Shown one piece after another: positions 49,663-64,000 of a stretch of 64,000 bases of DNA (position 1 is the stretch's first letter; each line of letters opens with the position of its first letter). The translations under genes and the position numbers were made by a program. Source of the DNA: Loktanella sp. Alg231-35 (GTDB taxonomy: Bacteria; Pseudomonadota; Alphaproteobacteria; Rhodobacterales; Rhodobacteraceae); assembly GCF_900143545.1 (NCBI RefSeq), contig NZ_FREV01000004.1:310001-374000 (forward strand), in the 5' to 3' direction. Below the pieces are notes generated by a model. It was not told where the DNA came from. It worked only from the letters and a program-made list of their open reading frames with translations, and did no database searches.

Positions 49663-50667
49663 CTAAGCAGATGGCACAATCGTATTGTCCCGCACACGGA
49701 ACATGTTGATCTTCTTGCGGTCCTCGGAAGGATGGATGCCAAAGACGTCGATGTATTTCTTACACAGCGTCGGCGCGTTTGCATAACCCACAGCGAAGGC
49801 GATCTGGGTCATGCTGTCCTTGCTATATAGCAAAAGCTGGCGGGCTTTGTGCATCCGCAGGGATTTGTAGTAGCCGCCGGGCGTGTTGCCCGTTGTCTTG
49901 TGAAACATGCGTTCCAGCTGGCGCACGGAGACGCCGACCTGATCGGCCACATCCGAGATATTGATAGGGTCCTCGATGTGATCGGCAAAGATATCAACGG
50001 CCTGCCGCACAATGGCTGGCAGCATGTCATGTGTGCTTTCGGTGGCAAAGGTCGGTTTGCGTTGCGTGACCCCCTGCCCGCGCACCAGAGGGTGCTGGAA
50101 CCAGCAGGCGACCTCGGTCGCCACATCTGATCCAAGGTTCTCTTCGATCAACAGAAGTGACAGATCAAACGCCGCAGCCGCACCCGACGCGGTCAGCCGA
50201 TTGCGGTCGATCATGATCACATCTTCGGTGGGTTTGAGGCGGGGAAATTCAGCGGCAAAGGCGGCCTCGTAGCACCAATGTACTGATGTGGTGTAGCCAG
50301 ACAAAAGGCCGCTGCGCGCCAAAGGGAAAATGCCGCCGCTAATCGCCCCCATGGTCACACCGTGCCGTGCAAACTTGCGCAACCGACCTTCGGAGGTCAC
50401 CGGATCTTCAAAACGGGATGATGGCCCGCTGAGCAGGAAAAGCTGGTCCAGTTTTTCGCAGTCTTCCAGCCGCAAGTCGGGTTCAAACCAGACCTTGGCG
50501 CTGGCTTCGACCCGTTCGCCATCTTCTGACACCAGCTTCCACGAAAACGTCTCGGCGCCCGCAATTTCGTTTGCGGCGCGCAGGGGTTCGATCATCGAGG
50601 TCAGGCAGGCCATCGGGAATCCCGGAAAGATTAGAAAGCCTATCTGGATATTTTTATTCAAGGTCAT
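49663..50667 (-). CDS. GlxA-type (DJ-1/AraC) transcriptional regulator
   Basis: A 334-residue regulator. The N-terminal DJ-1/PfpI-like sensor domain (about residues 5-170, starting IQIGFLIFPGFPMACLTSMIEPLRAANEI) lacks a hydrolase Cys-His pair in recognisable context. The C-terminal AraC domain (about 215-320) has two HTH units (INISDVADQVGVSVRQLERMF and MTQIAFAVGYANAPTLCKKY). GlxA-family regulators (GbdR, CdhR) respond to quaternary and methylated amines, which fits its position at the left end of the methylamine island. Divergent from the XRE-cupin gene. Confidence 0.9.
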   Translation of the reverse strand: MTLNKNIQIGFLIFPGFPMACLTSMIEPLRAANEIAGAETFSWKLVSEDGERVEASAKVWFEPDLRLEDCEKLDQLFLLSGPSSRFEDPVTSEGRLRKFARHGVTMGAISGGIFPLARSGLLSGYTTSVHWCYEAAFAAEFPRLKPTEDVIMIDRNRLTASGAAAAFDLSLLLIEENLGSDVATEVACWFQHPLVRGQGVTQRKPTFATESTHDMLPAIVRQAVDIFADHIEDPINISDVADQVGVSVRQLERMFHKTTGNTPGGYYKSLRMHKARQLLLYSKDSMTQIAFAVGYANAPTLCKKYIDVFGIHPSEDRKKINMFRVRDNTIVPSA

Positions 50668-50765
50668 AAAATTATCCTAGCAGGAAACAAATGTGGTATT
50701 CTAGACAAGGACAAGCGAAAATCTTCAATTGAGTCATTGTATGACCGGAGCAGAGCAGTAAGTGA

Positions 50766-51422
50766 ATGACCATTGAAAAGCCGGATCCCCTAATGTCTGC
50801 CACACCTCTTCAACAAGACCCGCATCGCGTTCGTGAACACCGTGAAAAAGTGCTCGAAGTTGCAATCGGCCGCGAAGTGCGCGCCTATCGCCGCAAACAG
50901 GAAATAACAGTTGCCGAACTTTCGGCGATGACCGGCCTGTCCATCGGCATGCTCTCGAAAATCGAGAACGGCAACACGTCCCCGTCTTTGACGACGCTGC
51001 AGACCCTGTCGAACGCGTTGTCCGTACCGCTGACCTCTTTCTTTCGCGGCTTCGAAGAAGACAGAATGGCCGTTCACACCAAAGCCGGTGAAGGGGTTGA
51101 GCTGCAACGGGACGGCACCCGTGCCAACCATCAATACAATCTTCTTGGGCATATCGGATCAAACGCCAGTGGGGTCATCGTTGAACCCTATCTAATCACC
51201 CTTTCAGAAAAATCAGATGTCTTCCCGACGTTCCAGCACGGCGGGATCGAAACGATATATATGCTTGAGGGCGAAGTTGACTACCGCCATGGCGAAGGTG
51301 TCTATCCGCTCAAACCGGGTGACACGCTGTTTTTCGATGCCGACGCACCACATGGACCAGAGGTGCTGGTTAAACTGCCTGCGCGCTATATCTCGGTCAT
51401 CTCCTACCCGCAGGACGGTTAA
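50766..51422 (+). CDS. XRE-cupin transcriptional regulator
   Basis: A 218-residue regulator: XRE HTH at about 35-90 (LSAMTGLSIGMLSKIENGNTSPSLTTLQTL) and a C-terminal cupin ligand-binding domain at about 145-212 (HGGIETIYMLEGEVDYRHGE...GDTLFFDADAPHGPEVL). Such proteins typically repress or activate genes for small metabolites. Start ATG at 50766; Met at 50793 also fits. It is divergent from the GlxA regulator and convergent with the DUF1194 gene, overlapping it by 4 bases. Likely target: the methylamine island. Confidence 0.9.
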   Translation: MTIEKPDPLMSATPLQQDPHRVREHREKVLEVAIGREVRAYRRKQEITVAELSAMTGLSIGMLSKIENGNTSPSLTTLQTLSNALSVPLTSFFRGFEEDRMAVHTKAGEGVELQRDGTRANHQYNLLGHIGSNASGVIVEPYLITLSEKSDVFPTFQHGGIETIYMLEGEVDYRHGEGVYPLKPGDTLFFDADAPHGPEVLVKLPARYISVISYPQDG

Positions 51423-52165
51423 TCAACCATCCGTCCCAGAACCGGGAACGACAGTTCGCGCAGCAATTTGCGCCGCATCGCGCGGGCGTAGTCGCCATAA
51501 CCATAGGCGATCATGGCAAAGGCTTCGGGTCCATGGATCACCTCAGTCTCGTAGTAGTCCTTCAATGATTGCGGAGTGAGGCTTGTGCCCTCGCTTGAGG
51601 TGTTGTTCGGGTTGCCAACGACGAGCGCATTTACTGTAATGCCAGCAAAGACCGGCGCGCGATAAAGTTCTTGCGGCGTAACACCAATGTTGTTTTTCCC
51701 GTCGCCAGAAACGTCAATCGTGTGCTGCCAACAATGCGATTGCTGCGCCAGCATTGCGGCGCCAAACTCCAATGCCGTTCCCATGGCCGTCCGCAGCCCG
51801 GCCCGGACCTTTTGATGCGAACGAATGCGTGTGATTGCCCGATCCAGCGCACCCGGCCCGTCCAGCGAAATCCAAGGTTGGATGACATATTGATGGTTGC
51901 GCGAACTCCACTCATAGATTGCCAGCGACACCGGCGCATCCGTGCTGAACAGGATCAGCGACCGGACGTCAGGATCACTTAACGCTGCGACCAATCCGGT
52001 GATCTGTTGGTTATATTCGGCCTCGTTCACAGAACCTGACACATCAAGTGCAAGAACAAGGGCCAAGCGACACTGCTGCGCCTGTGCAGGCGACACAAGA
52101 AGGCAAAAGATGGCGAGTAAGACCTGCGTGACCAAGCGGAACCGGATCACACAAGGCATTTTCAT
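51419..52165 (-). CDS. DUF1194 exported VWA-like protein at the end of the dmm arm
   Basis: A 248-residue protein. A signal peptide (VTQVLLAIFCLLVSPAQAQQ) precedes a VWA-type domain with an intact MIDAS (LALDVSGSVNEAEY, then SGDGKNN). DUF1194 proteins are periplasmic and of unknown function. Its ATG immediately follows the dmmC stop (TAA-ATG), which suggests it belongs to the dmm transcription unit. It is not part of published dmm enzyme models that I know of. It ends convergent with the XRE regulator. Confidence 0.82.
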   Translation of the reverse strand: MKMPCVIRFRLVTQVLLAIFCLLVSPAQAQQCRLALVLALDVSGSVNEAEYNQQITGLVAALSDPDVRSLILFSTDAPVSLAIYEWSSRNHQYVIQPWISLDGPGALDRAITRIRSHQKVRAGLRTAMGTALEFGAAMLAQQSHCWQHTIDVSGDGKNNIGVTPQELYRAPVFAGITVNALVVGNPNNTSSEGTSLTPQSLKDYYETEVIHGPEAFAMIAYGYGDYARAMRRKLLRELSFPVLGRMVD

Positions 52166-53233
52166 TTAGGTCTTCAGTGCTGGTTCGGTCTCAAGATCAG
52201 GCCAAATTCCATCACTTGTGGGCAGCCCGTCATCGAACTTTGACAGATAATCGAGCATCATCGGCCGGTTGTCGATGAACCCTTTGTAGGTCGCCAATTC
52301 CTCGGGCAGATCACGGATCACCCGGTGCAGGCGCCGCCCCCATTTTGGCGCGGTCATCAGGTCCTGAAAACTGCAAAGATAGCAGCGGATCGGAAAGACC
52401 AGCGCGTTAGAGCGTGGCAGACGGAAGAAGGTCTGCAACTCGACCCTCAAATGCTGTTTTGCGCCGATATTTTCGGGCGTCAGCGTCGTCTTTTGGATGC
52501 CCCATTTGTGGTAATTCTCGGGGCTGGTATCCAAAAGCGGGTTCACCGTCATTGTCCAGTTAAGGCGTCGCGCGGGCGCGCCCTGTTGAATGTTCAGCAG
52601 GAACTTGAGCGCGCGCACAAAGATGCCCTTTTCATGGGCCAGCGGCACTGGCGCGTGCCACTCAAAGAAGTTCATTCCGATGTCAAAATCCAGCGACCAA
52701 TCGGCCTGCGTGGTCACCATGCCCGCGTCCATCCAAAGGTTATCATCGCGCTGATCCAGCACGCAGAAATCGCCCTGAGCCTGCCGAGTGATATACTCCA
52801 TCGGGCCGTAAGGCAGCGTGGTTTCATCCAGAAACACAAAGCTGTCGTCGATGCCCAGCGGCTTGTTCACCCAGCGCCAGTTGTTTCCGTCGCGGTGCAG
52901 TTCGAACAGATCTGGATAGTCCTCGGACTTACTGACCATGATCAGCTCCAGCAGGTCCCAACCCGCAAGCGTCATATGTGGCAAGGACTGGCAGCGCAGC
53001 GGGTCGTCGGCCAGCACCATCGCCCGGTCACGCATCTCGGCCACATAGTGTTCATCGACGTCGAAGCGTTTTTCATAGACGCTGTCTACAGGGCCGCCCC
53101 GGTGTTGCTCCATGTTGACCGAGTACATGTAGCTGTCTTCATGGAACGGAAATGGAAAGCGCTTGATTGCCCTGTCGGAGTTGAAAAAGGAGTAATCGTC
53201 GCGGAATGTTTCGTCGTTGAATTGAATGGTCAT
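52166..53233 (-). CDS. dmmC: Heme-dependent oxidative N-demethylase subunit (DUF3445), dimethylamine monooxygenase DmmC
   Basis: A 355-residue protein of the DUF3445 family, whose characterised members are PAS-fold heme oxidases that demethylate amines. It starts MTIQFNDETFRDDYSFFNSD and has the conserved regions LPHMTLAGWDLLELIMVSK and ALVFPIRCYLCSFQDLM. In the dmm operon it is the heme catalytic subunit acting on dimethylamine with the DmmB reductase. ATG at 53233 is one base after the dmmB stop; the frame extends to 53320 inside dmmB. The A/B/C lettering is inferred from gene order D-A-B-C; the function is stronger than the letter. Confidence 0.8.
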   Translation of the reverse strand: MTIQFNDETFRDDYSFFNSDRAIKRFPFPFHEDSYMYSVNMEQHRGGPVDSVYEKRFDVDEHYVAEMRDRAMVLADDPLRCQSLPHMTLAGWDLLELIMVSKSEDYPDLFELHRDGNNWRWVNKPLGIDDSFVFLDETTLPYGPMEYITRQAQGDFCVLDQRDDNLWMDAGMVTTQADWSLDFDIGMNFFEWHAPVPLAHEKGIFVRALKFLLNIQQGAPARRLNWTMTVNPLLDTSPENYHKWGIQKTTLTPENIGAKQHLRVELQTFFRLPRSNALVFPIRCYLCSFQDLMTAPKWGRRLHRVIRDLPEELATYKGFIDNRPMMLDYLSKFDDGLPTSDGIWPDLETEPALKT

Positions 53234-53234
53234 A

Positions 53235-54197
53235 TCAGCGGTCCAATACCAGTGTTTTGCCTTCAAAGCGGCTGACGCAGGGCATGATCTTTTCGCCGTT
53301 TGCGTGTTCATCATCATCAAGCCAGTGATCGCGGTGGATGAAGTTGCCAGTGTAGTCGATCACCCGCGTCTCGCACTGCCCGCAAGCGCCACCACGACAG
53401 AGGTAAGGCGCGTCCACACCTGCGCGCTCTATCGCTTCCAGCAGACTTTCGGTCTCACCAACCTGAATAACCTTGTTCGAGACGGCCAGTTTCACCTCAA
53501 ACGGCTTACCCGGCTGCGGGGCAAGGAATTCTTCATAATGTACCGCCTCACGTGGCCAACCTTCGGCAGTTGCGGTACCGCGCACCCACTCAATCATGCC
53601 CTTGGGGCCGCAGACATATACGTGGGTGCCCAAAGGTTGCCCGTCCAGCAAGTTGACCAGATCAATCTTATCGTTCTGATCATCGTAGTAGATGTGCGTC
53701 TCGTTCGGGTGATGGTTTGTCAGCTCATCCACGTAAGACCCAAGGCTTTCAGTGCGGCAGGCATAGTGGAGTTCCCAATTGCCATTGAACCGCTCTAACT
53801 GTTTGATCTGCGCCAGAAACGGCGTGATCCCGATGCCTCCGGCCAGAAACAGGTGCTTTTTCGCGCGCAAATCAAGGCTGAACAGATTGACCGGGTAAGA
53901 GATGGTCATCTCATCCCCAACCTTCACCCGTTGATGCATAAAGAGTGACCCTCCGCGCCCTTCATCATCACGGCGTACAGAAATGGTATAGGCCGATTGA
54001 TCCATCGGATCAGACATCAGCGAATAGGGATTCAGGCGAGTGATATCTCCGTCCCGCATCTCAACCACGGTGTGTGCGCCACCCGAAAAGGTTGGTAATC
54101 GACCACCATCAACACGCGCGAACTTGAAGCGCGTCACCAGCTCATTCAGGGGGACAATATCCGTCACTTTGACGGCAATTTTTTCTGCGCCGCTCAT
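53235..54197 (-). CDS. dmmB: PDR/VanB-type flavin and 2Fe-2S oxidoreductase, dimethylamine monooxygenase DmmB
   Basis: A 320-residue electron-transfer subunit. Phthalate-dioxygenase-reductase layout: FMN-binding beta barrel (RLNPYSL near 54-60), NAD-binding domain (FLAGGIGITPFLAQI near 117-131; VYVCGPKGMI), and a C-terminal plant-type 2Fe-2S domain (CRGGACGQC and a final Cys in MPCVSRF). It would pass electrons from NAD(P)H to the heme subunit DmmC. It overlaps dmmA by ATGA. A stand-alone VanB reductase is the only alternative, and context rejects it. Confidence 0.87.
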   Translation of the reverse strand: MSGAEKIAVKVTDIVPLNELVTRFKFARVDGGRLPTFSGGAHTVVEMRDGDITRLNPYSLMSDPMDQSAYTISVRRDDEGRGGSLFMHQRVKVGDEMTISYPVNLFSLDLRAKKHLFLAGGIGITPFLAQIKQLERFNGNWELHYACRTESLGSYVDELTNHHPNETHIYYDDQNDKIDLVNLLDGQPLGTHVYVCGPKGMIEWVRGTATAEGWPREAVHYEEFLAPQPGKPFEVKLAVSNKVIQVGETESLLEAIERAGVDAPYLCRGGACGQCETRVIDYTGNFIHRDHWLDDDEHANGEKIMPCVSRFEGKTLVLDR

Positions 54198-54790
54198 TCG
54201 TAAATCCCCTTTGGTTCGGGCACGTTGCCAGGGTCTTCGGCGTCGATGCAGACACCTTGATAGGCGGCCAACCTACGTGAATAGTGATCCCGCACAAACA
54301 GGTTCAACCCGCAATGCGCGCAGACAAACGGGTCGGTTTCGACATCTTCAGTGATCCCTTTGCAATGCACGCATTGAATCCGGCGTGCCGTTGATCCGCG
54401 ATGCTCTGTCTGGATTGCCGTATGGGGAATACCCGCCTGCATGGCGGCATTCTGCGCCTGCCCCATCAGACCTTCCGTACCTGCAAGATAGACCTGCAAT
54501 CCCATCTTGGCATCAGCCAGCGCCTTGTGGATACGCTGCTCTGCCGCACCGTATGACGGACCCGCATAGAAAGATGCGGCGTTGAGGCCACGCAGCTTGT
54601 CCTCAAACGCCGCCCCTTTGGGAATATAGACGATGTGGGCCTTTGCCATCATGGCAGGCGTGGCGACATCCAGAATGGCCTCGGCACCTTCGGCATCTGC
54701 GATCAGCAGATGTGCGGCGCCATCGCGTTGTTCGAGAGTGCCATAGACCGGGCGACTTCGAATGCTTTGTGGAAACGTGAATTTAGACAT
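54194..54790 (-). CDS. dmmA: Dimethylamine monooxygenase subunit DmmA-like protein
   Basis: A 198-residue protein with an N-terminal Rossmann-like part (IVYIPKGAAFEDKLRGLNAASFYAGPSYGAAEQ) and a C-terminal zinc- or rubredoxin-like CVHC...CAHC pair (about 145-170). Databases call this family DmmA-like, the small subunit of dimethylamine monooxygenase. It is the first gene of the dmmABC set, 52 bases downstream of dmmD with a strong hairpin between them, and overlaps dmmB by 4 bases. Confidence 0.82.
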   Translation of the reverse strand: MSKFTFPQSIRSRPVYGTLEQRDGAAHLLIADAEGAEAILDVATPAMMAKAHIVYIPKGAAFEDKLRGLNAASFYAGPSYGAAEQRIHKALADAKMGLQVYLAGTEGLMGQAQNAAMQAGIPHTAIQTEHRGSTARRIQCVHCKGITEDVETDPFVCAHCGLNLFVRDHYSRRLAAYQGVCIDAEDPGNVPEPKGIYE

Positions 54791-54807
54791 ATCAGTCCTT
54801 TGGAATG

Positions 54808-54834
54808 AAAAAGGCGCGCAGTGCCCTGCGCGCC
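54808..54834 (-). terminator. Intrinsic terminator-like hairpin between dmmD and dmmABC
   Basis: Read on the minus strand: perfect 9-bp stem GGCGCGCAG / CTGCGCGCC with a 4-base loop GGCA, followed immediately by TTTTT. It lies 8 bases after the dmmD stop and before the dmmA start, so it would reduce transcription into dmmABC unless antitermination or a separate promoter is used. Confidence 0.8.
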
Positions 54835-54842
54835 CGATCCGA

Positions 54843-55991
54843 TCAGCCCTTTGCAGCGCGAATCGATTTGTCTTTGTCGTAGAATGGCATTTCTTCCGCG
54901 GTTGCGGCCAGTTCCGTACCGTCTGGTTGCTTGACCGTCAGCTTGGTGCCCGGCTTGGCCGCATCCGGTGCAATCCGCGCAATCGCGACGCTGTAGTTGT
55001 TCAACTCGGACGACAGTCCGTAGGTGATGACGCCAATGTCTTTGCCGTCACGCAACACGCGCGCGCCCATCTCCATCTGATCCATGCTGTCAGACAACTG
55101 CACGCCGTAAATCTTAAAGCGCTCCTTGCCCTGCATGGCATAGTGGTTTTCGGCGCCGACAAAACCTTCCTTGCCAGGGGACACGGTGAACTCCAGACCA
55201 AGCTCCCACAGAGTGTCACCGCAGGGTTCATCATCGAATGGGAAGGTTTCGGAATTGTCACCGGGATAGAACAGCAAGTAGCTTTCGATGCGCAGCATAT
55301 CGAGCGTGCTGAACTGGACTGGGCGGACGCCCATACCTTTGCCCGCTTCTAGAATGCTGTCCCAGAGATGCGTGGCATCTTTTGCACGGCAGAATATCTC
55401 GTATCCACGCTCACCGGTGTAGCCGGTGCGCGAGATCATGACATCACGACCATAGAGGCGCGTCTGCATAAGGCCAAAGTAAGCCAGATCCCGGATAGCG
55501 GGGATTTCTTTGGCCAAGAGATCAACGGAAACAGGCCCCTGCAAGGACATATCGTGCAGATCGTCGTCAAACAGGATTTCGCAGTTCTTGCCCGCCGCAA
55601 CAGACGCCAACTGCTCCATCCCCGTGCCGGTACCATGCACGACCATCCATGAGTTCACGGCGAGGTGGTAGATAATGCAGTCATCAATAAACAACCCGCG
55701 ATCATTCAGGATTGAGGCATATGTTGATCGGCCGGGGGCGATTTTTTCGACGTTCCGGGTTGTCACACGGTCAATGACATAGGCCGCGTCTGCGCCGACA
55801 ACATGGACCTTCTTGAGACCAGAGACATCCATGAGGCCCGCCTTGGTGCGGATCGCCTCATAATCGGCTTTGGCACGCTCGGGCGTATGATCGTAGAACC
55901 ACGCCGTGCCCATCCCGTTCCAGTCTTCGAGTTCACCCCCGATTTCGGCGTGGCGATGTGCAAGTGCCGACGATCTCCAAAGAATGGCCAT
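54843..55991 (-). CDS. dmmD: GcvT-family aminomethyltransferase-like protein DmmD
   Basis: A 382-residue glycine-cleavage T-protein relative. GcvT folate-binding domain: GLMDVSGLKKVHVVGADAAYVIDRVTTRNV, then RTGYTGERGYEIFCRAKDA, and PCGDTLWELGLEFTVSPGKEGFVGAE. It should transfer the C1 group released by dimethylamine oxidation to tetrahydrofolate, as proposed for DmmD. The DMSP demethylase DmdA is also of this family, but the dmm neighbours favour DmmD. First gene of the leftward arm, divergent from amt over 242 bases. Confidence 0.82.
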   Translation of the reverse strand: MAILWRSSALAHRHAEIGGELEDWNGMGTAWFYDHTPERAKADYEAIRTKAGLMDVSGLKKVHVVGADAAYVIDRVTTRNVEKIAPGRSTYASILNDRGLFIDDCIIYHLAVNSWMVVHGTGTGMEQLASVAAGKNCEILFDDDLHDMSLQGPVSVDLLAKEIPAIRDLAYFGLMQTRLYGRDVMISRTGYTGERGYEIFCRAKDATHLWDSILEAGKGMGVRPVQFSTLDMLRIESYLLFYPGDNSETFPFDDEPCGDTLWELGLEFTVSPGKEGFVGAENHYAMQGKERFKIYGVQLSDSMDQMEMGARVLRDGKDIGVITYGLSSELNNYSVAIARIAPDAAKPGTKLTVKQPDGTELAATAEEMPFYDKDKSIRAAKG

Positions 55992-56100
55992 TGGTCTCTC
56001 CCAGTCATGATTTTTGGTTTTCCTAATTGAGACTCAGGTGGTCTCCAAAAGCAAGACTGTTAGTCAAAAAAGTTTCCTGTCAGGCAACCGGAATTTGGGT

Positions 56101-56127
56101 TCTCGGCGGGCCCCAGCAGCGCCGAGA
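56101..56127. promoter_or_regulatory. Hairpin in the dmmD/amt divergent control region
   Basis: Arms TCTCGGCG and CGCCGAGA around an 11-base loop. It sits 110 bases from the dmmD start and 107 bases from amt, roughly central. It could be an operator for the flanking regulators or a structure in the amt leader. Confidence 0.45.
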
Positions 56128-56193
56128 GCATACCGACTATTGACAGATCGGCCCAATTCAGTGTGATCTTTGAGGAAAAAATTATTACTGGTA

Positions 56194-56206
56194 GGCAAAA
56201 ATTGCC
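56194..56206. promoter_or_regulatory. Palindrome GGCAAAAATTGCC upstream of amt
   Basis: Arms GGCAA and TTGCC with an AAA centre, 28 bases before the amt start codon. A possible operator near the start of transcription. I tested it as a sigma-54 site and it does not fit (spacing wrong). Confidence 0.35.
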
Positions 56207-56233
56207 ACCACCATCAACAGGGGAGACTGTAAA

Positions 56234-57598
56234 GTGGATGGAAATCTAAACGCTCTAACGACCGTATTTACCGAGTTTTATTACTGGGTCACGGTTGTTT
56301 TCATGTTCCTGATTCATGTGGGGTTCTGCATGTATGAAGTTGGCGCTAGCCGTGCTCGGAATCACATGCATACCTTGATGAAGAACATCATGATCATCCC
56401 TTTGGTGACGGTCACATTCTTCTTCTTTGGCTGGTGGATCTACTGGGCATTTCCAAATTTCTGGATTTTCGGCGGTTCGCTGGATCTTGAAAGTGGTGCG
56501 GCGAATCTGCCGTGGTCTGAGAATATGGGCACAAACCTGGGGGATCGCATCACAGGTGTGTTCTGGGCCGCGTTCCTGCTATTCTCGTGGACGGCCGCAT
56601 CCATCGTTTCTGGATCAGTGATTGAACGTATCCGTTCGTCCGCGCTTTGGGTTCACGCTGTTCTGATCGGTTCGGTCTTTTGGATCATCGATGCAGCTTG
56701 GGGCTGGCACTATGCCGGTTGGATGGTGCAGAAACTTGGCTACCACGATGCTTATGCCTCTGGTGTGATCCACGCCATTGCGGGCGGTTATGCCTTGGGT
56801 GTGCTCATGGTTCTGGGGCCGCGTATCGGTAAGTTTGCCAAAGACGGTACGCCGCGCGACATTCCTCCGCATAATCCATGGTTGCTGACAATCGGGATTT
56901 TCCTGATCTACACCGGTTTCTGGGGCTTTTATGCCGCGTGCAACGTGCCTGCGATTTCGCCAGAGGCGATCGGTGGTCAGATCACAGGGACAACCTGGAC
57001 AGCAACAAACATCTATCTCGCGCCGACCTCATTGTCCGCGATCACGTTCAACTTCCTTATGTCACTGTCAGGTGGCCTGATGGCAGCGTATGTGGTGTCG
57101 AAGGGTGATGCGTTCTGGACATTCTCTGGCGGTTTGGCCGGGATCATTACGGCCTCTGCCGGCAATGACCTGTACCACCCAATTCAAGCCATGATCATTG
57201 GCGCTGTTGGTGTCGTGATTGTCTACAAGTTGCACTACTGGGTCGAACGCCGCTTCAAGCTGGATGACGCAGTTGGCGCTGTTGCGGTGCATGGTTATGC
57301 GGGCTTTGTCGGTTTGGTTATCTCAGGCTTTGTCCTTTGGGGTGTCCCAAGCTCGCCTTTCGAAGGCTATGCGACAATCAACCCTCTTGGTCAGTTCCTT
57401 GGTGCTGTGATCATGTTCTTTGTATTGGGTTTCCTGCCCGGTTTTGTGGTCTCGAAACTGCAAGCCAAAGCCGGTGTGCTGCGCATCCCGGAAGAGGTCG
57501 AATTGCAAGGTCTCGATTACGCCGAGCATCACGCCTACGAAGATGCAAAAGCGCAGATCATCGACGCTGACAGGGCCGCCCTCGCGGCCAAATCCTAA
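56234..57598 (+). CDS. amt: Ammonium transporter (Amt family)
   Basis: A 454-residue membrane channel of about 11 helices. The FLIHVGFCMYEVGASRARNH entry and the pore region HAIAGGYALGVLMVLGPRIG, with the second pore His (VHGYAGFVGL), are visible. It imports ammonium or, possibly, methylammonium. Start is GTG at 56234, 7 bases after GGGAGA. It heads the rightward methylamine arm, which fits recapture of ammonium released from methylamines. The acidic, His-rich C-terminal tail (EVELQGLDYAEHHAYEDAKA) is typical of family members regulated by PII proteins. Confidence 0.94.
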   Translation: MDGNLNALTTVFTEFYYWVTVVFMFLIHVGFCMYEVGASRARNHMHTLMKNIMIIPLVTVTFFFFGWWIYWAFPNFWIFGGSLDLESGAANLPWSENMGTNLGDRITGVFWAAFLLFSWTAASIVSGSVIERIRSSALWVHAVLIGSVFWIIDAAWGWHYAGWMVQKLGYHDAYASGVIHAIAGGYALGVLMVLGPRIGKFAKDGTPRDIPPHNPWLLTIGIFLIYTGFWGFYAACNVPAISPEAIGGQITGTTWTATNIYLAPTSLSAITFNFLMSLSGGLMAAYVVSKGDAFWTFSGGLAGIITASAGNDLYHPIQAMIIGAVGVVIVYKLHYWVERRFKLDDAVGAVAVHGYAGFVGLVISGFVLWGVPSSPFEGYATINPLGQFLGAVIMFFVLGFLPGFVVSKLQAKAGVLRIPEEVELQGLDYAEHHAYEDAKAQIIDADRAALAAKS

Positions 57599-57615
57599 CG
57601 AAAGGAAGATAACAA

Positions 57616-57831
57616 ATGTCTACTATTGGATATGAAAGCTGGGCGGTTGACCTCGCTGATGTTGGTGCCGTCTACCCTTTCCAGGGTTGGGAAGTCGCGA
57701 TGACGATCATTGGTGTTGCCTTCTGGCTCGGCTGGCACCGGATTCAATTCGTGCGCGAAGGCAAGCACCTTGAAGAGGCGCGCCAAATGGGCGAGCGGGA
57801 CAAGATCGAAAAGATGCTGGAACGCTACTAA
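57616..57831 (+). CDS. Small single-helix membrane protein between amt and mgsA
   Basis: A 71-residue protein, MSTIGYESWAVDLADVG..., with one hydrophobic segment (WEVAMTIIGVAFWLGWHRI, about 25-43) and a charged, helical C-terminus (EARQMGERDKIEKMLERY). AAAGGAAG precedes the ATG. It is 17 bases after the amt stop, so it is cotranscribed. I recognise no family. Position and topology make it a candidate accessory subunit or regulator of the Amt channel. Confidence 0.75.
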   Translation: MSTIGYESWAVDLADVGAVYPFQGWEVAMTIIGVAFWLGWHRIQFVREGKHLEEARQMGERDKIEKMLERY

Positions 57832-57840
57832 AGTACGATC

Positions 57841-57867
57841 CGGGCGGCCAGAAAACTGGGCCGCCCG
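57841..57867 (+). terminator. GC-rich hairpin after amt and the small membrane gene
   Basis: Stem CGGGCGGC / GCCGCCCG with an 11-base loop, 9 bases after the small gene's stop. No T-run follows (ATATTACC), so it is a partial terminator or mRNA-stabilising end that could set amt-versus-mgs expression ratios. Confidence 0.55.
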
Positions 57868-57968
57868 ATATTACCTAGGGGAAATTTTTATTCCTCATGG
57901 TTGAGGGTGTAGTGCTTAGCTGTTAGCCTTCGAATCAATAGAGCTCCACCCCTGAAAGGACAGCGCAG

Positions 57969-58898
57969 ATGTGCGGAATTGTTGGGTTATTCCTCAAGGA
58001 CAAATCACTTGAACCTCAGCTGGGTGAGCTGCTGACAGCTATGCTGATCACCATGACGGATCGCGGCCCAGACAGTGCCGGGATTGCTATTTATGGTGAT
58101 GAATGGAAAGGCCGCAGCAAGATGACGGTGCAGGCCGCTGACCCTGATGCTGCATTTCCCGGACTGGACCAAGCGCTAAGCAATGCCATCGGTGGCAAGG
58201 TCAAGATGTCAGTGAAAAGCACCCATGCGATCCTTGATATTCCGGCCCGGTCAACGGCGCAGGTGCGCACAGCTTTACACAACATCAACCCCAACATTCG
58301 CCTGATGAGCCGTGGCGACACGCTTGAAATCTACAAAGAAGTGGGCCTGCCCAAGGATGTGGCAGAACGCTTTGATATTTCTAAAATGTCCGGCACGCAC
58401 GGGATTGGCCACACGCGTATGGCCACTGAATCAGCGGTGACGACTATGGGTGCCCACCCCTTTAATACGGGCGATGACCAGTGCCTTGTACATAACGGAT
58501 CGCTCTCCAACCACAATTCGTTGCGCCGCAAGCTGCGCCGCGAGGGGATTCACATCGAAACCGAGAATGACACCGAAGTGGGCGCTGCCTATCTGACGTG
58601 GCAGATGCAGAACGGGGCGACGCTTGGTGAGGCTCTGGAAAGCAGCCTTGATGACCTTGATGGGTTCTTTACCTTTGTTGTCGGTACCAAAGACGGTTTT
58701 GGCGTTGTGCGCGACCCGATTGCCTGCAAGCCGGCGGTGATGGCCGAAACCGATCAATATGTGGCCTTTGGCTCGGAATACCGGGCGCTTGTTGACCTGC
58801 CGGGCATCGAAGATGCGCGCGTTTGGGAACCCGAACCCGCAACTGTCTATTTCTGGAGCCACAACGCAGCCCCAACATCGAACGAAAAGGCCGCCTGA
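57969..58898 (+). CDS. mgsA: N-methylglutamate synthase subunit A (glutamine-amidotransferase-like)
   Basis: A 309-residue Ntn-hydrolase resembling the glutaminase domain of glutamate synthase. The catalytic N-terminal Cys (Met-Cys-Gly-Ile-Val-Gly) becomes residue 1 after Met removal; TDRGPDSAG and HTRMATESAVT follow in order. With MgsB and MgsC it forms N-methylglutamate synthase, which in the GMA pathway makes N-methylglutamate. The close paralogue is rhizobial GlxB; neighbouring gmaS, tmm and dmm genes favour mgs. Preceded by GAAAGGA. Confidence 0.85.
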   Translation: MCGIVGLFLKDKSLEPQLGELLTAMLITMTDRGPDSAGIAIYGDEWKGRSKMTVQAADPDAAFPGLDQALSNAIGGKVKMSVKSTHAILDIPARSTAQVRTALHNINPNIRLMSRGDTLEIYKEVGLPKDVAERFDISKMSGTHGIGHTRMATESAVTTMGAHPFNTGDDQCLVHNGSLSNHNSLRRKLRREGIHIETENDTEVGAAYLTWQMQNGATLGEALESSLDDLDGFFTFVVGTKDGFGVVRDPIACKPAVMAETDQYVAFGSEYRALVDLPGIEDARVWEPEPATVYFWSHNAAPTSNEKAA

Positions 58899-58901
58899 TA
58901 C

Positions 58902-59585
58902 ATGCAAACAATCGACCTTCAAGACATCGGCCTGCGCGAAATGAACAAGACGTTGCATGCGCAAGCCGACACCACCAATCAGACCGCGTGGGAAATCGTG
59001 AACCCCAAGGGCGCACACGCGATTGCATGCGGGTTGGACGCACCCATCGAAGTGACGGTGAAGGGTTCAACCGGCTACTACTGTGCCGGGATGAACCAGC
59101 AGGCGACGGTGAACATTCACGGCTCTGCTGGCCCCGGCACAGGTGAAAACATCATGTCGGGCAAAATCATCATCGAAGGCGACGCAAGCCAGTATCTGGG
59201 TGCGACCGGTCACGGTGGGCTGATCGTGGTGAAGGGCAACGCATCATCGCGCTGCGGCATTTCAATGAAGGGCGTCAACATCGTCGTGCAAGGCAGTGTT
59301 GGGCACATGTCCGCATTCATGGGTCAATCCGGCAATCTGGTTGTTTGCGGTGATGCAGGCGATGCCTTGGGCGACAGTTGCTATGAGGCACGGTTTTTTG
59401 TGCGCGGCACAGTAAAATCACTGGGCGCCGATTGCGAAAAGAAAGAAATGCGTGCCGAGCACATCGAGATCCTCAAGGGGTTGCTGGATGAGGCAGGCAT
59501 AGACGCCGATCCATCGGAATTCACGCGCTACGGCTCTGCCCGCAACCTTTACAACTTCGACGTCGATAACGCCGGCGCTTACTAA
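58902..59585 (+). CDS. mgsB: N-methylglutamate synthase subunit B (GltB GXGXG domain)
   Basis: A 227-residue beta-helix protein matching the C-terminal GXGXG repeat domain of glutamate synthase, here as a separate gene. Repeating glycine-rich motifs are visible (GSTGYYCAGMNQQATVNIHG, YLGATGHGGLIVVKGNAS, GQSGNLVVCGDAGDALGD). A structural subunit of the Mgs complex. It starts 3 bases after the mgsA stop and is followed by mgsC after 11 bases. The alternative name is GlxC. Confidence 0.85.
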   Translation: MQTIDLQDIGLREMNKTLHAQADTTNQTAWEIVNPKGAHAIACGLDAPIEVTVKGSTGYYCAGMNQQATVNIHGSAGPGTGENIMSGKIIIEGDASQYLGATGHGGLIVVKGNASSRCGISMKGVNIVVQGSVGHMSAFMGQSGNLVVCGDAGDALGDSCYEARFFVRGTVKSLGADCEKKEMRAEHIEILKGLLDEAGIDADPSEFTRYGSARNLYNFDVDNAGAY

Positions 59586-59596
59586 GGATACCACCC

Positions 59597-60943
59597 ATGA
59601 ACAAACACGACCCAAAGGGTATCCCGCACACAACGCCACGGCAGTCAGCCACGTTTACCCAAGATATCAACAGCGACATTCGCCGTGCGGCAGCCACAGG
59701 CATTTATGACATTCGCGGCGGTGGGGCAAAGCGCAAAGTCCCATCCTTTGACGATCTGCTGTTTATGGGTGCGTCCATTTCCCGCTACCCCCTCGAAGGC
59801 TATCGTGAGAAATGTGAAACGTCTGTGACCATCGGCGGGCTGCACGCCGAAAACCCGATTGAACTGGATATCCCGATCACTATTGCAGGCATGTCTTTCG
59901 GTGCGCTGTCCGGCCCTGCGAAAGAGGCCTTGGGGCGCGGCGCATCTGCTGCGGGCACCTCGACGACCACTGGCGACGGCGGCATGACACCCGAAGAACG
60001 CGGGCATTCTGACAAGCTGGTCTATCAATACCTGCCGTCACGCTATGGCATGAACCCTGATGATCTGCGCAAGGCCGACGCCATCGAAATCGTGGTTGGT
60101 CAGGGCGCGAAACCAGGCGGCGGTGGCATGTTGTTGGGCCAAAAGATCAGCGACCGCGTTGCCGAGATGCGCAATCTGCCTAAAGGGATAGACCAACGTT
60201 CCGCGTGTCGTCACCCGGATTGGACCGGCCCGGATGATCTGGAAATCAAGATCCTCGAACTGCGCGAGATTACAGGCTGGAAAGTGCCAATTTACGTCAA
60301 GGTCGCAGGCGCACGCCCTTACTATGACACGACATTGGCCATCAAGGCTGGCGCGGATGCAGTCGTGCTTGACGGTATGCAAGGCGGTACAGCCGCAACG
60401 CAAGACGTCTTCATTGAACACGTAGGCCAGCCAACCCTCGCCATCGTGCGTCCTGCGGTTCAAGCACTGCAAGACCTCGGGATGCACCGCAAGGTGCAGT
60501 TGATCCTATCTGGTGGTATCCGCTCTGGCGCCGATGTCGCCAAAGCTATGGCATTGGGTGCCGACGCTGTTGCTATTGGTACGGCGGCACTGATCGCATT
60601 GGGTGACAATGATCCAAAGTGGGAGGCCGAGTACAATGAACTGGGCACCACGGCGGGCGCCTATGATGACTGGCACGAAGGCCAAGACCCCGCCGGGATC
60701 ACCACACAGGACCCAGAACTGATGAAGCGGTTCGACCCTATCGAAGGGGGGCGTCGCCTGCGCAACTACCTCAAGGTGATGACGCTTGAGGCCCAGACCA
60801 TCGCGCGGGCCTGCGGCAAGAACCACCTGCACAATCTGGAACCAGAGGATTTGGTGGCGCTGACGATGGAAGCCGCTGCAATGGCCAAGGTCCCGCTGGC
60901 GGGCACCGATTGGTACCCCGGCAAGCCAAACACATCATATTAA
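59597..60943 (+). CDS. mgsC: N-methylglutamate synthase subunit C (FMN glutamate-synthase domain)
   Basis: A 448-residue TIM-barrel protein of the FMN-binding glutamate synthase family, the catalytic flavin subunit of MgsABC. The barrel shows AGMSFGALSGPAKEALG, GQGAKPGGGGMLLGQKIS, KVAGARPYYDT and LDGMQGGTAATQDV. The FMN phosphate site is in LSGGIRSGADVAKAMALGADAVAIGTAAL. The usual 3Fe-4S cysteine loop of glutamate synthases (C-X5-C-X4-C) is not present; the matching region reads GAYDDWHEGQDPAGITTQ. This differs from classical GltB but is seen in some GlxD/Mgs relatives. Confidence 0.86.
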   Translation: MNKHDPKGIPHTTPRQSATFTQDINSDIRRAAATGIYDIRGGGAKRKVPSFDDLLFMGASISRYPLEGYREKCETSVTIGGLHAENPIELDIPITIAGMSFGALSGPAKEALGRGASAAGTSTTTGDGGMTPEERGHSDKLVYQYLPSRYGMNPDDLRKADAIEIVVGQGAKPGGGGMLLGQKISDRVAEMRNLPKGIDQRSACRHPDWTGPDDLEIKILELREITGWKVPIYVKVAGARPYYDTTLAIKAGADAVVLDGMQGGTAATQDVFIEHVGQPTLAIVRPAVQALQDLGMHRKVQLILSGGIRSGADVAKAMALGADAVAIGTAALIALGDNDPKWEAEYNELGTTAGAYDDWHEGQDPAGITTQDPELMKRFDPIEGGRRLRNYLKVMTLEAQTIARACGKNHLHNLEPEDLVALTMEAAAMAKVPLAGTDWYPGKPNTSY

Positions 60944-60953
60944 TCGAAAACGA

Positions 60954-60980
60954 GGGCGCGGCTGTTTACAGATCGCGCCC
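60954..60980 (+). terminator. Hairpin between mgsC and gmaS
   Basis: Outer stem GGGCGCG / CGCGCCC with a nested CTGT/ACAG pair inside the loop. It lies 10 bases after the mgsC stop and 29 bases before gmaS, with no T-run. Possibly a processing or attenuation element tuning gmaS relative to mgsABC. Confidence 0.55.
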
Positions 60981-61009
60981 CATTCTTTCCAAAGACAGGG
61001 AAACACAAA

Positions 61010-62338
61010 ATGGCAACTGATCTTGCAAAATTCGCCAAGGACAATGGCGTCAAATACTTCATGATTTCCTTCACCGATCTGTTCGGTGGACAACGGGCCA
61101 AACTGGTCCCCGCGCGCGCAATTGCGGATATGCAGGAAGACGGCGCTGGGTTTGCTGGGTTCGCCACATGGCTGGACCTGACACCGGCACACCCCGATAT
61201 GCTGGCCGTTCCTGACCCCGAAGCCGTGATCATCCTACCGTGGAACAAGGAAATTGCTTGGGTTCCCGCCAACTGCGTCATGGAAGACCAACCGGTGGAA
61301 CAAGCCCCCCGCAACGTGCTTTGTCGTCTGATTGACGAAGCCGCCGCAGAAGGCATGCACGTCAAAACCGGGATCGAGGCAGAGTTCTTTTTGTTAACGC
61401 CCGAAGGCGACCAGATCAGCGACCCTTACGATACCGCAGCTAAACCCTGCTATGATCAGCAGGCCTTCATGCGGCGTCTGGATGTGATCCGCGAAATCAG
61501 TGATCACATGCTGGAACTGGGCTGGAACCCGTACCAGAACGACCACGAGGACGCGAATGGCCAGTGGGAGATGAACTGGGACTTTGACGACGCGCTCAGG
61601 ACCGCTGACAAACATAGTTTCTTCAAATTCATGGCCAAATGCGTCGCTGAAAAGCACGGCTTCCGCGCGACGTTTATGCCCAAGCCGATTGAGGGCCTCA
61701 CTGGAAACGGATGCCACGCACATATCTCGGTTTGGGACGCACCGGGCGACAAGGCCAAAACCAATGTTTTTGCAGGTGCAGGTGAAGGACAAACCGGTGA
61801 ATTGGGGCTGTCGGAGCGTGGCAAGCACTTCCTTGGCGGCATCATGAAACACGCCAGTGCCTTGGCGGCGATCACCAACCCAACCGTAAACAGCTACAAG
61901 CGCATCAACGCGCCACGCACCACGTCTGGTGCCACTTGGGCACCCAACACGGTGACTTGGACAGGTAACAACCGCACACATATGGTGCGCGTTCCCGGTC
62001 CGGGCCGCTTTGAACTGCGCCTGCCCGACGGTGCCGCAAACCCTTATCTGTTGCAGGCGGTGATCATCGCGGCGGGTCTGTCCGGCATCCGCTCTAAGGC
62101 GGACCCCGGCAAACGCCACGACATCGATATGTATGCCGAAGGTCACAAGGTCAAAGGTGCACCAAAGTTGCCGCTGAACATGCTGGATGCCTTGCGCGAA
62201 TATGACAAAGACAAGGGCCTGAAAGCTGCAATGGGCGATGAGTTTTCCGCCGCCTACCTGAAGATGAAAATGCAGGAATGGAACGATTTTTGCGGTCACT
62301 TCTCGGATTGGGAAAAGGCAAACACGCTGGATATCTGA
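61010..62338 (+). CDS. gmaS: Gamma-glutamylmethylamide synthetase (type III glutamine-synthetase family)
   Basis: A 442-residue ATP-dependent ligase of the GlnT/GlnA family that joins methylamine to glutamate. The catalytic domain has EAEFFLLTP (metal Glu), GNGCHAHISVW, NPTVNSYKRI and the C-terminal ATP/glutamate site GRFELRLPDGAANPYL. Ribosome-binding AGGGAAA precedes ATG 61010. In marine roseobacters GmaS is next to mgs and tmm, so context argues for methylamine rather than ammonia as substrate; sequence alone cannot separate it cleanly from GlnT glutamine synthetase. Confidence 0.85.
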   Translation: MATDLAKFAKDNGVKYFMISFTDLFGGQRAKLVPARAIADMQEDGAGFAGFATWLDLTPAHPDMLAVPDPEAVIILPWNKEIAWVPANCVMEDQPVEQAPRNVLCRLIDEAAAEGMHVKTGIEAEFFLLTPEGDQISDPYDTAAKPCYDQQAFMRRLDVIREISDHMLELGWNPYQNDHEDANGQWEMNWDFDDALRTADKHSFFKFMAKCVAEKHGFRATFMPKPIEGLTGNGCHAHISVWDAPGDKAKTNVFAGAGEGQTGELGLSERGKHFLGGIMKHASALAAITNPTVNSYKRINAPRTTSGATWAPNTVTWTGNNRTHMVRVPGPGRFELRLPDGAANPYLLQAVIIAAGLSGIRSKADPGKRHDIDMYAEGHKVKGAPKLPLNMLDALREYDKDKGLKAAMGDEFSAAYLKMKMQEWNDFCGHFSDWEKANTLDI

Positions 62339-62389
62339 TGGGCACAGCCCTTCACCGAAACATTCACGCAAACGGAGAATGATCAAAAC

Positions 62390-63724
62390 ATGACCAAGCG
62401 CATAGCAGTCATTGGTGCCGGGCCATCCGGCCTCGCGCAACTTCGCGCGTTTCAATCTGCCGCCGCCAAGGGCGCAGAAATCCCCGAGATTGTTTGCTTT
62501 GAAAAACAGTCGGATTGGGGCGGCTTGTGGAACTACACGTGGCGCACCGGACTGGATCAATATGGCGAACCCGTGCACGGTTCGATGTATCGCTATCTAT
62601 GGTCAAATGGCCCCAAGGAAGGGCTAGAGTTCGCCGACTATTCATTCGAGGAACATTTCGGCAAGCAAATCGCGAGTTACCCGCCGCGTGCAGTGCTTTT
62701 TGACTATATCCAGGGGCGCGTTGCAAAAGCAGGTGTGCGTGATTGGATCCGGTTTGAGACAGCAGTGCGTTGGGTCGAGAAGGCTGGAGACACATTCAGC
62801 GTCACAGTTTGCAACCTGCCCGAAGATCACACCTACACCGAAGAATTCGACCATGTGATCGTCTGCTCGGGCCATTTCAGCACGCCCAATGTACCGCAGT
62901 TTGATGGGTTCGAGAGCTTCAAGGGACGCGTGTTGCACGCCCATGATTTTCGTGACGCGATGGAGTTCAAGGATAAGGATATCCTGATTGTTGGCACCAG
63001 CTATTCCGCCGAGGACATCGGTAGCCAGTGCTGGAAATACGGCGCAAAGTCGATCACCGTCAGCCACCGCACGGCTGCGATGGGCTATGACTGGCCGGAC
63101 AACTGGGCCGAGGTGCCGCTGCTGACCCAAGTAGATGGCAATACCGCGCATTTCAAAGACGGCAGCAGCCGTGATGTGGATGCTGTGATCCTGTGTACCG
63201 GATACAAGCACCACTTCCCCTTCTTGCCCGACAGCCTGCGTCTGAAAACGGCAAACCGGCTGGCGGCTGCGGACCTCTACAAGGGTGTTGCTTTTGTGAA
63301 TGAGCCCGATCTTTTCTATATCGGCATGCAGGACCAGTGGTTCACCTTCAACATGTTTGACGCCCAAGCCTGGTGGGTGCGCGACGTAATCATGGACCGG
63401 ATCGCAATGCCCGGCAAAGCCGCGATGAAGGCAGATGTTGCTGACCGTGTCGCGCGCGAAGACGCGGGCAAAGACGACTATGACGCGATCTGGTATCAGG
63501 GTGACTACATCAAGGAGCTGATCGCCGAAACTGACTATCCCACCTTTGATGTCGAAGGGGCCTGCAAGGCGTTTAAGGCATGGAAAGGCCATAAGAAGGC
63601 CGGGATCATGACCTTCCGCGACAATGGCTATAAGTCGGTCATCACCGGCACCATGGCACCCAAGCACCACACGCCGTGGAAGGATGCGCTGGATGACAGT
63701 CTTGAGGTGTATTTGCAAAACTGA
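62390..63724 (+). CDS. tmm: Trimethylamine monooxygenase Tmm (FAD, FMO family)
   Basis: A 444-residue flavin-containing monooxygenase that oxidises trimethylamine to trimethylamine N-oxide. FAD-binding GAGPSG (about 8-13), NADPH-binding VGTSYSAED (about 203-211) and the FMO signature [13 protein letters not shown] are present. Conserved Tmm segments such as [28 protein letters not shown] and [11 protein letters not shown]...[12 protein letters not shown] are near-identical in pattern to Methylocella and roseobacter Tmm. Last gene of the rightward arm. The adjacent 63725 gene is convergent with it. Confidence 0.92.
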
Positions 63725-64000
63725 TCAGGGGGCCGTGCGGGCAGTCCTTAGGAAAACATAAGTCTGACGCAGGGCGGCTTTGTCTTTCAGTGACACGGCC
63801 GTTTCCTGCCCTTCTGCTTGATACAGCCGCAGATCATAGAAGTCGGGGTGATTGACGCTTTGATCATGGCTTGCCGTTGCGGTTGGACCAAGGCATGCCG
63901 CGACCGCCTCATTCAACCGTTCGAAGGCCGCTGTTGCCTCATCAGCGCGGTAGGCAAAGGGCCAACCACATTGGACCTGCGTGCCACCGCCAAGGATCAA
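63725..64000 (-). CDS. C-terminal part of a small, probably exported protein (start outside window)
   Basis: The last 91 residues of a protein whose beginning lies beyond base 64000. The visible part (GGGTQVQCGWPFAYRADEA...DQSVNHPDFYDLRLYQAEG...SLKDKAALRQTYVFLRT) resembles small exported roseobacter proteins of unknown function; the cysteines QCGW and ACLG could form a disulfide. The frame is open to the edge; the codon at the edge (TTG) is not a convincing start. Tail-to-tail with tmm, with adjacent stops. Confidence 0.65.
   Translation of the reverse strand: MILGGGTQVQCGWPFAYRADEATAAFERLNEAVAACLGPTATASHDQSVNHPDFYDLRLYQAEGQETAVSLKDKAALRQTYVFLRTARTAP

Follow-up and report, generated by a model that had tools for sequence, protein, structure and literature searches.

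A candidate XRE-cupin regulator and a predicted 36-bp operator in the trimethylamine island of Loktanella sp. Alg231-35

The locus at 49663–63724 of a 64,000-nucleotide stretch of Loktanella sp. Alg231-35 DNA (hereafter the window; contig C12:310001–374000 of a 3.91-Mb genome in 15 contigs) holds genes for the use of trimethylamine (TMA), dimethylamine (DMA) and methylamine together with two regulator genes, and it raises the question of how the pathway is controlled and through which DNA site. We consider it likely that the genome encodes the complete roseobacter pathway for nitrogen from TMA, with TmaR as activator and an XRE-cupin protein as a second regulator acting on a 36-bp operator. 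The island is the known, published roseobacter TMA cluster, and its gene content is ordinary. What appears to be new is an XRE-cupin regulator; its family is known, and it has a candidate operator and a predicted regulon with sharp limits. An earlier reading of the window from its letters (the sequence-only reading) had named a GlxA-type and an XRE-cupin regulator, and both were found in place with agreeing Pfam domains:

49663–50667, minus strand: probable tmaR orthologue, GlxA/AraC-type with DJ-1/PfpI and AraC helix-turn-helix (HTH) domains (Pfam, identity group, neighbourhoods)
50766–51422, plus strand: XRE-cupin transcription factor (HTH_3 and Cupin_2; co-occurrence with gmaS), proposed owner of the candidate methylamine operator

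The distribution of the XRE-cupin gene was followed in 345 family genomes, tallied as 344 genera, with thresholds of E ≤ 1e-45 for the XRE-cupin protein and E ≤ 1e-75 for TmaR. The XRE-cupin gene was present in 101 genomes, gmaS in 112, tmm in 72 and dmmC in 48. gmaS was found in 98 of the 101 XRE-positive genomes, and the XRE-cupin gene in 98 of the 112 gmaS-positive and in all 48 dmmC-positive genomes; it occurred in 43/47 genomes with gmaS and without tmm, and in 2/7 with tmm and without gmaS. Of its 102 copies, 82 lay on the contig that carries gmaS, 80 of these within 20 kb of that gene. TmaR was matched in 41 of the 112 gmaS-positive genomes. Thus, since the corresponding count for the XRE-cupin gene was 98, this gene tracks the methylamine pathway more closely than does the published master regulator. 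The genomes of one family are related, and exact-test p values for such co-occurrence overstate independence.

The XRE-cupin protein has the architecture of its family, an N-terminal XRE HTH followed by a C-terminal cupin domain in Pfam. The nearest NCBIfam model was PuuR (NF007408), with 46.3 bits under a cut-off of 211. An AlphaFold model of middling quality (mean predicted local distance difference test score 69.7, predicted template modelling score 0.46) placed helices at residues 30–93 and a beta domain at the C-terminus. The regulator structure 1y9q was among the best matches by both sequence and fold, and the best fold matches were HppE-type Fe cupin enzymes (template modelling score ~0.33). 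Across 101 XRE-cupin sequences, 83 alignment columns were at least 98% identical, including those of cupin His158, Glu162 and His196. Since this His158-X3-Glu162-X33-His196 set is nearly invariant, a metal or ligand site in the cupin domain is plausible; the set presumably resembles the HppE metal site.

The candidate operator was defined by a 36-bp motif learned from the mgsA upstream regions of 63 named loci. The named loci, 80 in all, lean to close kin because they are the best-scoring of 508 relatives. With the dmmD sites added, the consensus of the motif becomes TTTTGCCTnAnAGGAAAAAAAGTTTCCTnnnAGTT, roughly a pair of CCT-N3-AGG units at a distance of 20 bp, of which the second is frequently incomplete. 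A position weight matrix (PWM) and a sequence model (R1), the latter derived from 60 non-redundant sites in other species, gave the following candidate sites in the window:

56168–56200, minus strand: site 1, amt-proximal, 34–66 bp upstream of the amt start (R1 24.5 bits, genome E 1.1e-4)
56056–56087, minus strand: site 2, dmmD-proximal, 65–96 bp upstream of the dmmD start (R1 21.8 bits, genome E 7.8e-4)
57869–57902, plus strand: site 3, 67–100 bp upstream of mgsA (R1 12.2–12.5 bits on either strand)
50676–50684, no strand assigned: single CCT-N3-AGG palindrome, CCTAGCAGG, between tmaR and the XRE-cupin gene (PWM 6.4 at 50650–50685)

Site 2 was matched on the other strand too (E 0.066), and site 3 scored 18.8 with a PWM whose training left the window out. 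The seven PWM matches that scored above 0 in the 64-kb window all lay in the tmaR-XRE, dmmD-amt and amt-mgsA regions, and the R1 matches coincided with sites 1–3. When the whole 3.9-Mb genome was scanned with R1, with 150 of its 426 initial candidates scored, all six matches at E ≤ 10 fell in the dmmD-amt, amt-mgsA and mgdA-tmoX regions, the last of these on contig C15. The mgsA and mgdA sites are not significant alone; the weight of the scan lies in the fact that no other genome match was listed. The palindrome between tmaR and the XRE-cupin gene was not matched in the searches with the sequence model, and it is possibly a weak autoregulatory site.

Promoters of related genomes were then scored against 100 shuffles each (p ≤ 0.01), using a PWM trained without the window on mgsA sites. 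The results showed that the motif is present in 56 of 59 dmmD promoters outside the training set, in 17 of 19 mgsA promoters of XRE-positive genomes that lack TmaR, and in none of 14 first-gene promoters (3 mgsA, 11 gmaS) of gmaS-positive genomes that lack the XRE-cupin gene. The set lacking TmaR comprised 19 of 20 loci picked where the XRE-cupin gene lies directly upstream of gmaS (L225 had no mgsA match). The XRE-negative set was reduced from 19 stretches by leaving out the mgsA of L242, which starts at a contig edge, and four gmaS stretches inside an mgs-gmaS run; the 14 promoters come from 13 of the 14 XRE-negative gmaS-positive genomes. For the mgd promoters a first weight matrix was used, with the window among its training sites, and none of six promoters of TmaR-positive, XRE-negative genomes carried the motif (6 of 10 stretches around TmaR had a usable mgdA start). 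On the mgsA promoters without TmaR this first matrix gave 19/19 at p ≤ 0.02 and 18/19 at p ≤ 0.01. The plain consensus pattern was found in 0 of the 19 XRE-negative stretches first taken. Across the 80 named loci (1.18 Mb), 175 collapsed matches scored above 5, and 168 of them lay within 350 bp upstream of pathway or regulator genes: 63 at mgsA (training), 56 at dmmD, 19 at mgdA, 18 at amt and 12 at tmaR or the XRE-cupin gene. The other 7 were elsewhere.

The GlxA-type gene is very likely tmaR, which encodes the published activator of the TMA pathway. Relatives with 50–64% identity to its product were found in 12 of 60 other family genomes, followed by a gap to 36%. In the sample of 345 genomes TmaR was matched in 52, our genome included, with 45–80% identity in relatives. 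The tmaR relatives adjoin mgd, dmm or XRE-cupin genes in related genomes, and the commonest order in the named loci is mgdABCD, tmaR, XRE, dmmCBAD, amt, mgsABC. In Ruegeria pomeroyi, TmaR is an AraC-type protein encoded between dmm and mgd; described in 2026 as the master activator of the pathway, it activates pathway promoters and also controls tdm (PMC13390433).

Does the genome hold the whole pathway? The sequence-only reading had found a nearly complete route from TMA to N-methylglutamate, had noted that tdm and mgdABCD were missing, and had left two possibilities, namely that they lie elsewhere in the genome or that the branch through trimethylamine N-oxide (TMAO) is incomplete. The absence is true of the window as cut and untrue of the genome, where a search located both, so that the second possibility fell away:

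C12:374916–377288, 0.9 kb past the window edge: tdm, encoding a 790-aa DUF1989 and GcvT protein (solved TMAO demethylase 9q59, 1154 bits; NF053776, 1211 bits, cut-off 1100)
about C15:23272–28298, the mgdA start being set by homologue length: mgdABCD (Pfam for three subunits)

Directly beyond tdm lie an EamA transporter gene and folD. The Pfam matches at the C15 locus were SoxB-like (flavin adenine dinucleotide oxidoreductase), SoxD and SoxA-like domains; the SoxG-like subunit had no Pfam match and was assigned by similarity to tmaR-adjacent genes in relatives. We took this locus as mgd among four SoxBDAG-like loci because its SoxA-like protein was the best own match (61–90% identity) in all 42 SoxA-holding loci among the 50 TmaR-bearing named loci. 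The loci on C10, C13 and C9 were rejected, with 39–63% identity to the TmaR-bearing named loci. Divergent from mgdABCD are genes for a binding protein (621 bits to PDB 4xz6, which we take to be TmoX of R. pomeroyi), an ABC ATPase and a permease, that is, tmoXWV.

For GmaS the best scores were 604 bits to the solved GmaS 7cql, 325 to the glutamate–methylamine ligase 9qur and 218 to the top-scoring chain among those named glutamine synthetase (GS). The catalytic residues Asp177, Glu186 and Arg312 of the Rhodovulum enzyme RhGmaS (PMC7948447) are conserved as D178, E187 and the aligned Arg of an NNRT motif, and the other GS paralogues of the same genome are 27–30% identical to GmaS. Judged by these scores and residues, the window protein is a gamma-glutamylmethylamide (GMA) synthetase rather than part of a GlnT/Glx system, the outcome by which the sequence-only reading would have been refuted; for GmaS that reading therefore stands. 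That the pathway is incomplete or belongs to a GlnT/Glx system is thus very improbable: neither tdm nor mgd lies inside the window, but tdm was found just past its edge and mgdABCD on C15, and GmaS fits a GMA synthetase. The roseobacter set for TMA oxidation (tmm, tdm, dmmABC, gmaS, mgsABC and mgdABCD) was found in one genome, and because tdm and mgdABCD are present outside the window and GmaS is a GMA synthetase, the route from TMA or TMAO to N-methylglutamate, and onward through Mgd, is complete at the gene level.

The pathway would run as follows. Tmm would make TMAO from TMA, and TmoXWV could import TMAO too; Tdm would split TMAO to DMA, which DmmABC would demethylate to methylamine, with DmmD handling the one-carbon unit and FolD, encoded near tdm, possibly also serving it. 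GmaS and MgsABC would convert methylamine to N-methylglutamate, to be oxidized by MgdABCD. The XRE-cupin protein would be a second, dedicated regulator, beside the activator TmaR where both exist, and would bind the 36-bp operator at dmmD/amt, mgsA and mgdA/tmoX. We infer this binding, the sign of control and the ligand from the genomic comparisons. By analogy with PuuR and PauR, the protein is probably a repressor that is released by methylamine or an early product such as a gamma-glutamyl or N-methyl intermediate, because XRE-cupin factors inhibit locally and GmaS is likewise a gamma-glutamyl-amine synthetase.

Could the operator belong to TmaR, with the XRE-cupin gene as a passenger? AraC-type proteins frequently recognize repeats in tandem at a spacing of about 20 bp, which counts for this explanation, as the candidate operator is a tandem repeat; tmaR is also present in many XRE-positive loci (50/80). 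TmaR moreover binds the dmm, gmaS-mgs and mgd promoters of R. pomeroyi in vitro (PMC13390433). The comparison between genomes points the other way: the site is kept in 17 of the 19 XRE-positive genomes that lack a TmaR match and is missing from all six mgd promoters where TmaR occurs without the XRE-cupin gene. The TmaR-negative and XRE-negative genomes thus disfavour a TmaR box, and we regard it as unlikely. The tdm promoter bears on both explanations, as the best score there, −7.3, is not significant (p 0.06); this weighs against our interpretation and also against a TmaR site, since TmaR controls tdm in R. pomeroyi. A third factor, inherited together with the XRE-cupin gene, might also own the operator. 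The co-occurrence is compatible with such a factor, all the evidence for the regulator is correlative, and neighbours were labelled with own-genome proteins only, so that another recurrent regulator could have been missed. The tight linkage to gmaS (80 of 82 same-contig pairs) argues against it, as does the fact that XRE-cupin factors are known to control neighbouring genes through palindromic sites (PMC7901475), and we consider a third factor improbable.

Several further observations weigh against the XRE-cupin protein as owner of the operator. In the genome itself the mgsA (E 0.76 on one strand, 1.0 on the other) and mgdA (E 2.8) sites are weak, and of the 426 first-look candidates the scan scored 150. 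Of the main window sites 1–3, site 2 alone contains an exact CCT-N3-AGG (at 56076–56084), and the tmaR-XRE region holds one palindrome only. Among the related genomes, 2 of the 19 mgsA promoters without TmaR miss p ≤ 0.01, where absence of TmaR means no match at E ≤ 1e-75, and only 26 of the 47 mgd promoters from XRE-positive loci, our own C15 promoter included, carried the motif. The plain consensus is weaker than the matrix (15/19 mgsA promoters without TmaR, 56/64 named mgsA promoters, and 42/60 dmmD promoters including that of the window). The XRE-negative genomes may differ by lineage and arrangement, 11 of their 14 tested promoters being from gmaS-first loci. Three of the 101 XRE-positive genomes had no gmaS match, and 14 of the 112 gmaS-positive genomes no XRE-cupin gene. 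Finally, published work, in the parts covered here, names TmaR and TmoR as regulators and not the XRE-cupin gene.

With these points weighed, the XRE-cupin protein remains our preferred owner of the operator, and we lean somewhat towards a broader view, in which it, and not TmaR, is the family-wide core regulator of the GMA pathway, with TmaR as an overlay in ~37% of the gmaS-positive genomes. As core regulator the protein would sense methylamine or its first products and use a single tandem operator to hold down dmm, amt, mgs-gmaS(-tmm) and mgd(-tmo), and its cupin His158-X3-Glu162-X33-His196 set may bind metal as part of sensing.

Known systems offer three comparisons. In R. pomeroyi DSS-3 the TMA cluster spans SPO1548–1588, and dmmDABC was studied there (PMC5520151, PMC13390433). 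As far as the cluster is described in the covered parts of these papers, both genomes share tmm, tdm, dmmDABC, gmaS-mgsABC, mgdABCD, tmoXWV and a TmaR-type regulator. Unlike in DSS-3, mgdABCD-tmoXWV here lie on a different contig from dmm, mgs, gmaS, tmm and tdm; tmm begins 51 bp after gmaS in the same orientation; and a DUF1194 gene lies beside dmmC. In strain KarMa and other Rhodobacteraceae, amt, glxA, XRE and fadR were listed as recurrent companions of methylamine genes, and XRE was merely marked in the KarMa clusters, with no site, regulon or function given in the parts of that paper covered (PMC7574528). A literature search for an XRE-cupin regulator of the methylamine pathway found none, regulon databases such as RegPrecise lying outside its scope; the words "cupin" and "XRE" are absent from the main text of the TmaR paper (PMC13390433).

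The third comparison is with PuuR and PauR. PuuA and PauA are GS-like. The XRE-cupin factors of Pseudomonas inhibit locally, have palindromic sites and are believed to let go in response to metabolites from the pathway under their guard; for PauR this is a gamma-glutamylation pathway (PMC7901475). Like PuuR and PauR, the present protein combines an HTH with a cupin domain and is predicted to have local targets, a palindromic site and a gamma-glutamyl-amine pathway as its target (PMC7901475). It differs from PuuR in its score on the PuuR model (46 against 211 bits) and in its pathway, methylamine rather than polyamine.

The pathway bears on the amounts of TMA, DMA and methylamine lost from the surface sea (PMC5520151). 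An XRE-cupin protein present in 98 of 112 gmaS-positive genomes, together with its candidate operator, lends itself to binding, ligand and deletion work, and the operator could serve as a marker for methylamine regulons whose genes are spread over several contigs.

The remaining genes of the island confirmed the list given by the sequence-only reading: all are present at exact coordinates, with family scores far beyond chance. The two divergent arms that it described also hold, dmmDABC on the minus strand being separated by 242 bp from amt, mgsABC, gmaS and tmm on the plus strand. From the left, the minus-strand tmaR and the plus-strand XRE-cupin gene are followed by:

51419–52165, minus strand: DUF1194 gene between dmmC and the XRE-cupin gene, unnamed in the sequence-only reading (PF06707, 210 bits)
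52166–53230, minus strand: dmmC, haem-dependent oxidative N-demethylase subunit of dimethylamine monooxygenase (PF11927, alpha, 223 bits; solved 5lte, 442 bits)
53235–54197, minus strand: dmmB, reductase subunit with NAD-binding and 2Fe-2S domains (Pfam Fer2, NAD_binding_1)
54194–54790, minus strand: dmmA (PF22290 and PF22289; NF041259, 119 bits, cut-off 60)
54843–55991, minus strand: dmmD, GcvT-like tetrahydrofolate-binding protein (PF01571, GCV_T, 193 bits; PF08669, GCV_T_C)
56234–57598, plus strand: amt, Amt-family transporter, probably for (methyl)ammonium uptake (PF00909, 185 bits)
57969–58898, plus strand: mgsA, N-methylglutamate synthase (GATase_6/7)
58902–59585, plus strand: mgsB (GXGXG, PF01493)
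59597–60943, plus strand: mgsC (Glu_synthase, PF01645, 289 bits)
61010–62338, plus strand: gmaS, gamma-glutamylmethylamide synthetase (TIGR03105, 645 bits, cut-off 469.6)
62390–63724, plus strand: tmm, trimethylamine monooxygenase (NF058570, 831 bits, cut-off 675; solved 5iq4, 784 bits)

The start of dmmC is probably at 53230, a correction to the earlier call, because homologue alignments begin there. The gaps between mgsA, mgsB, mgsC, gmaS and tmm are 3, 11, 66 and 51 bp, and because of these short same-strand gaps tmm is probably co-transcribed with mgs-gmaS here. The DUF1194 gene abuts dmmC and overlaps the XRE-cupin gene by 4 bp; found in the same place in 3 of the 80 named loci (L129, L130 and L137), it was rejected as a pathway part and is a probable bystander. 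At the amt position, named relatives carry either an Amt 82–97% identical to that of the window, on the mgs strand (in one locus in two pieces), or a second kind, 40–46% identical and on the opposite strand.

TmaR-type proteins also occur in other settings. In four loci of XRE-negative genomes (L243, L246, L248 and L252), copies lie without mgd within the 19 kb examined; for L243 and L252, the genome carries another TmaR-clade copy next to mgd. Because of the copies without nearby mgd, TmaR-like proteins may serve other pathways too. Genome G038 (L076:8935–9576) holds a 36%-identical XRE-cupin paralogue beside a TmaR homologue and has no gmaS or dmmC match.

Downstream of tdm are three small overlapping minus-strand genes, from window position 63725 onward (C12:373725–374919; L006:1726–2920), the last of which enters the window:

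63725–64000, minus strand: C-terminal part of a 140-aa open reading frame, the last of the three small genes

The middle gene encodes a truncated haemoglobin (PF01152, 75 bits), which might, at a guess, serve Dmm, a haem enzyme, or the steps that use oxygen. A literature search linking truncated haemoglobin with methylated-amine genes found no paper. Relatives at E ≤ 1e-10 were present in 23 of the 72 tmm-positive genomes, which were those searched; two of the 23 (in G178 and G191) carry an internal stop. dmmC was present in all 23 tmm-positive genomes with the truncated haemoglobin, against 21 of 49 without it, and 18 of the 23 genes lay within 10 kb of a methylamine gene.

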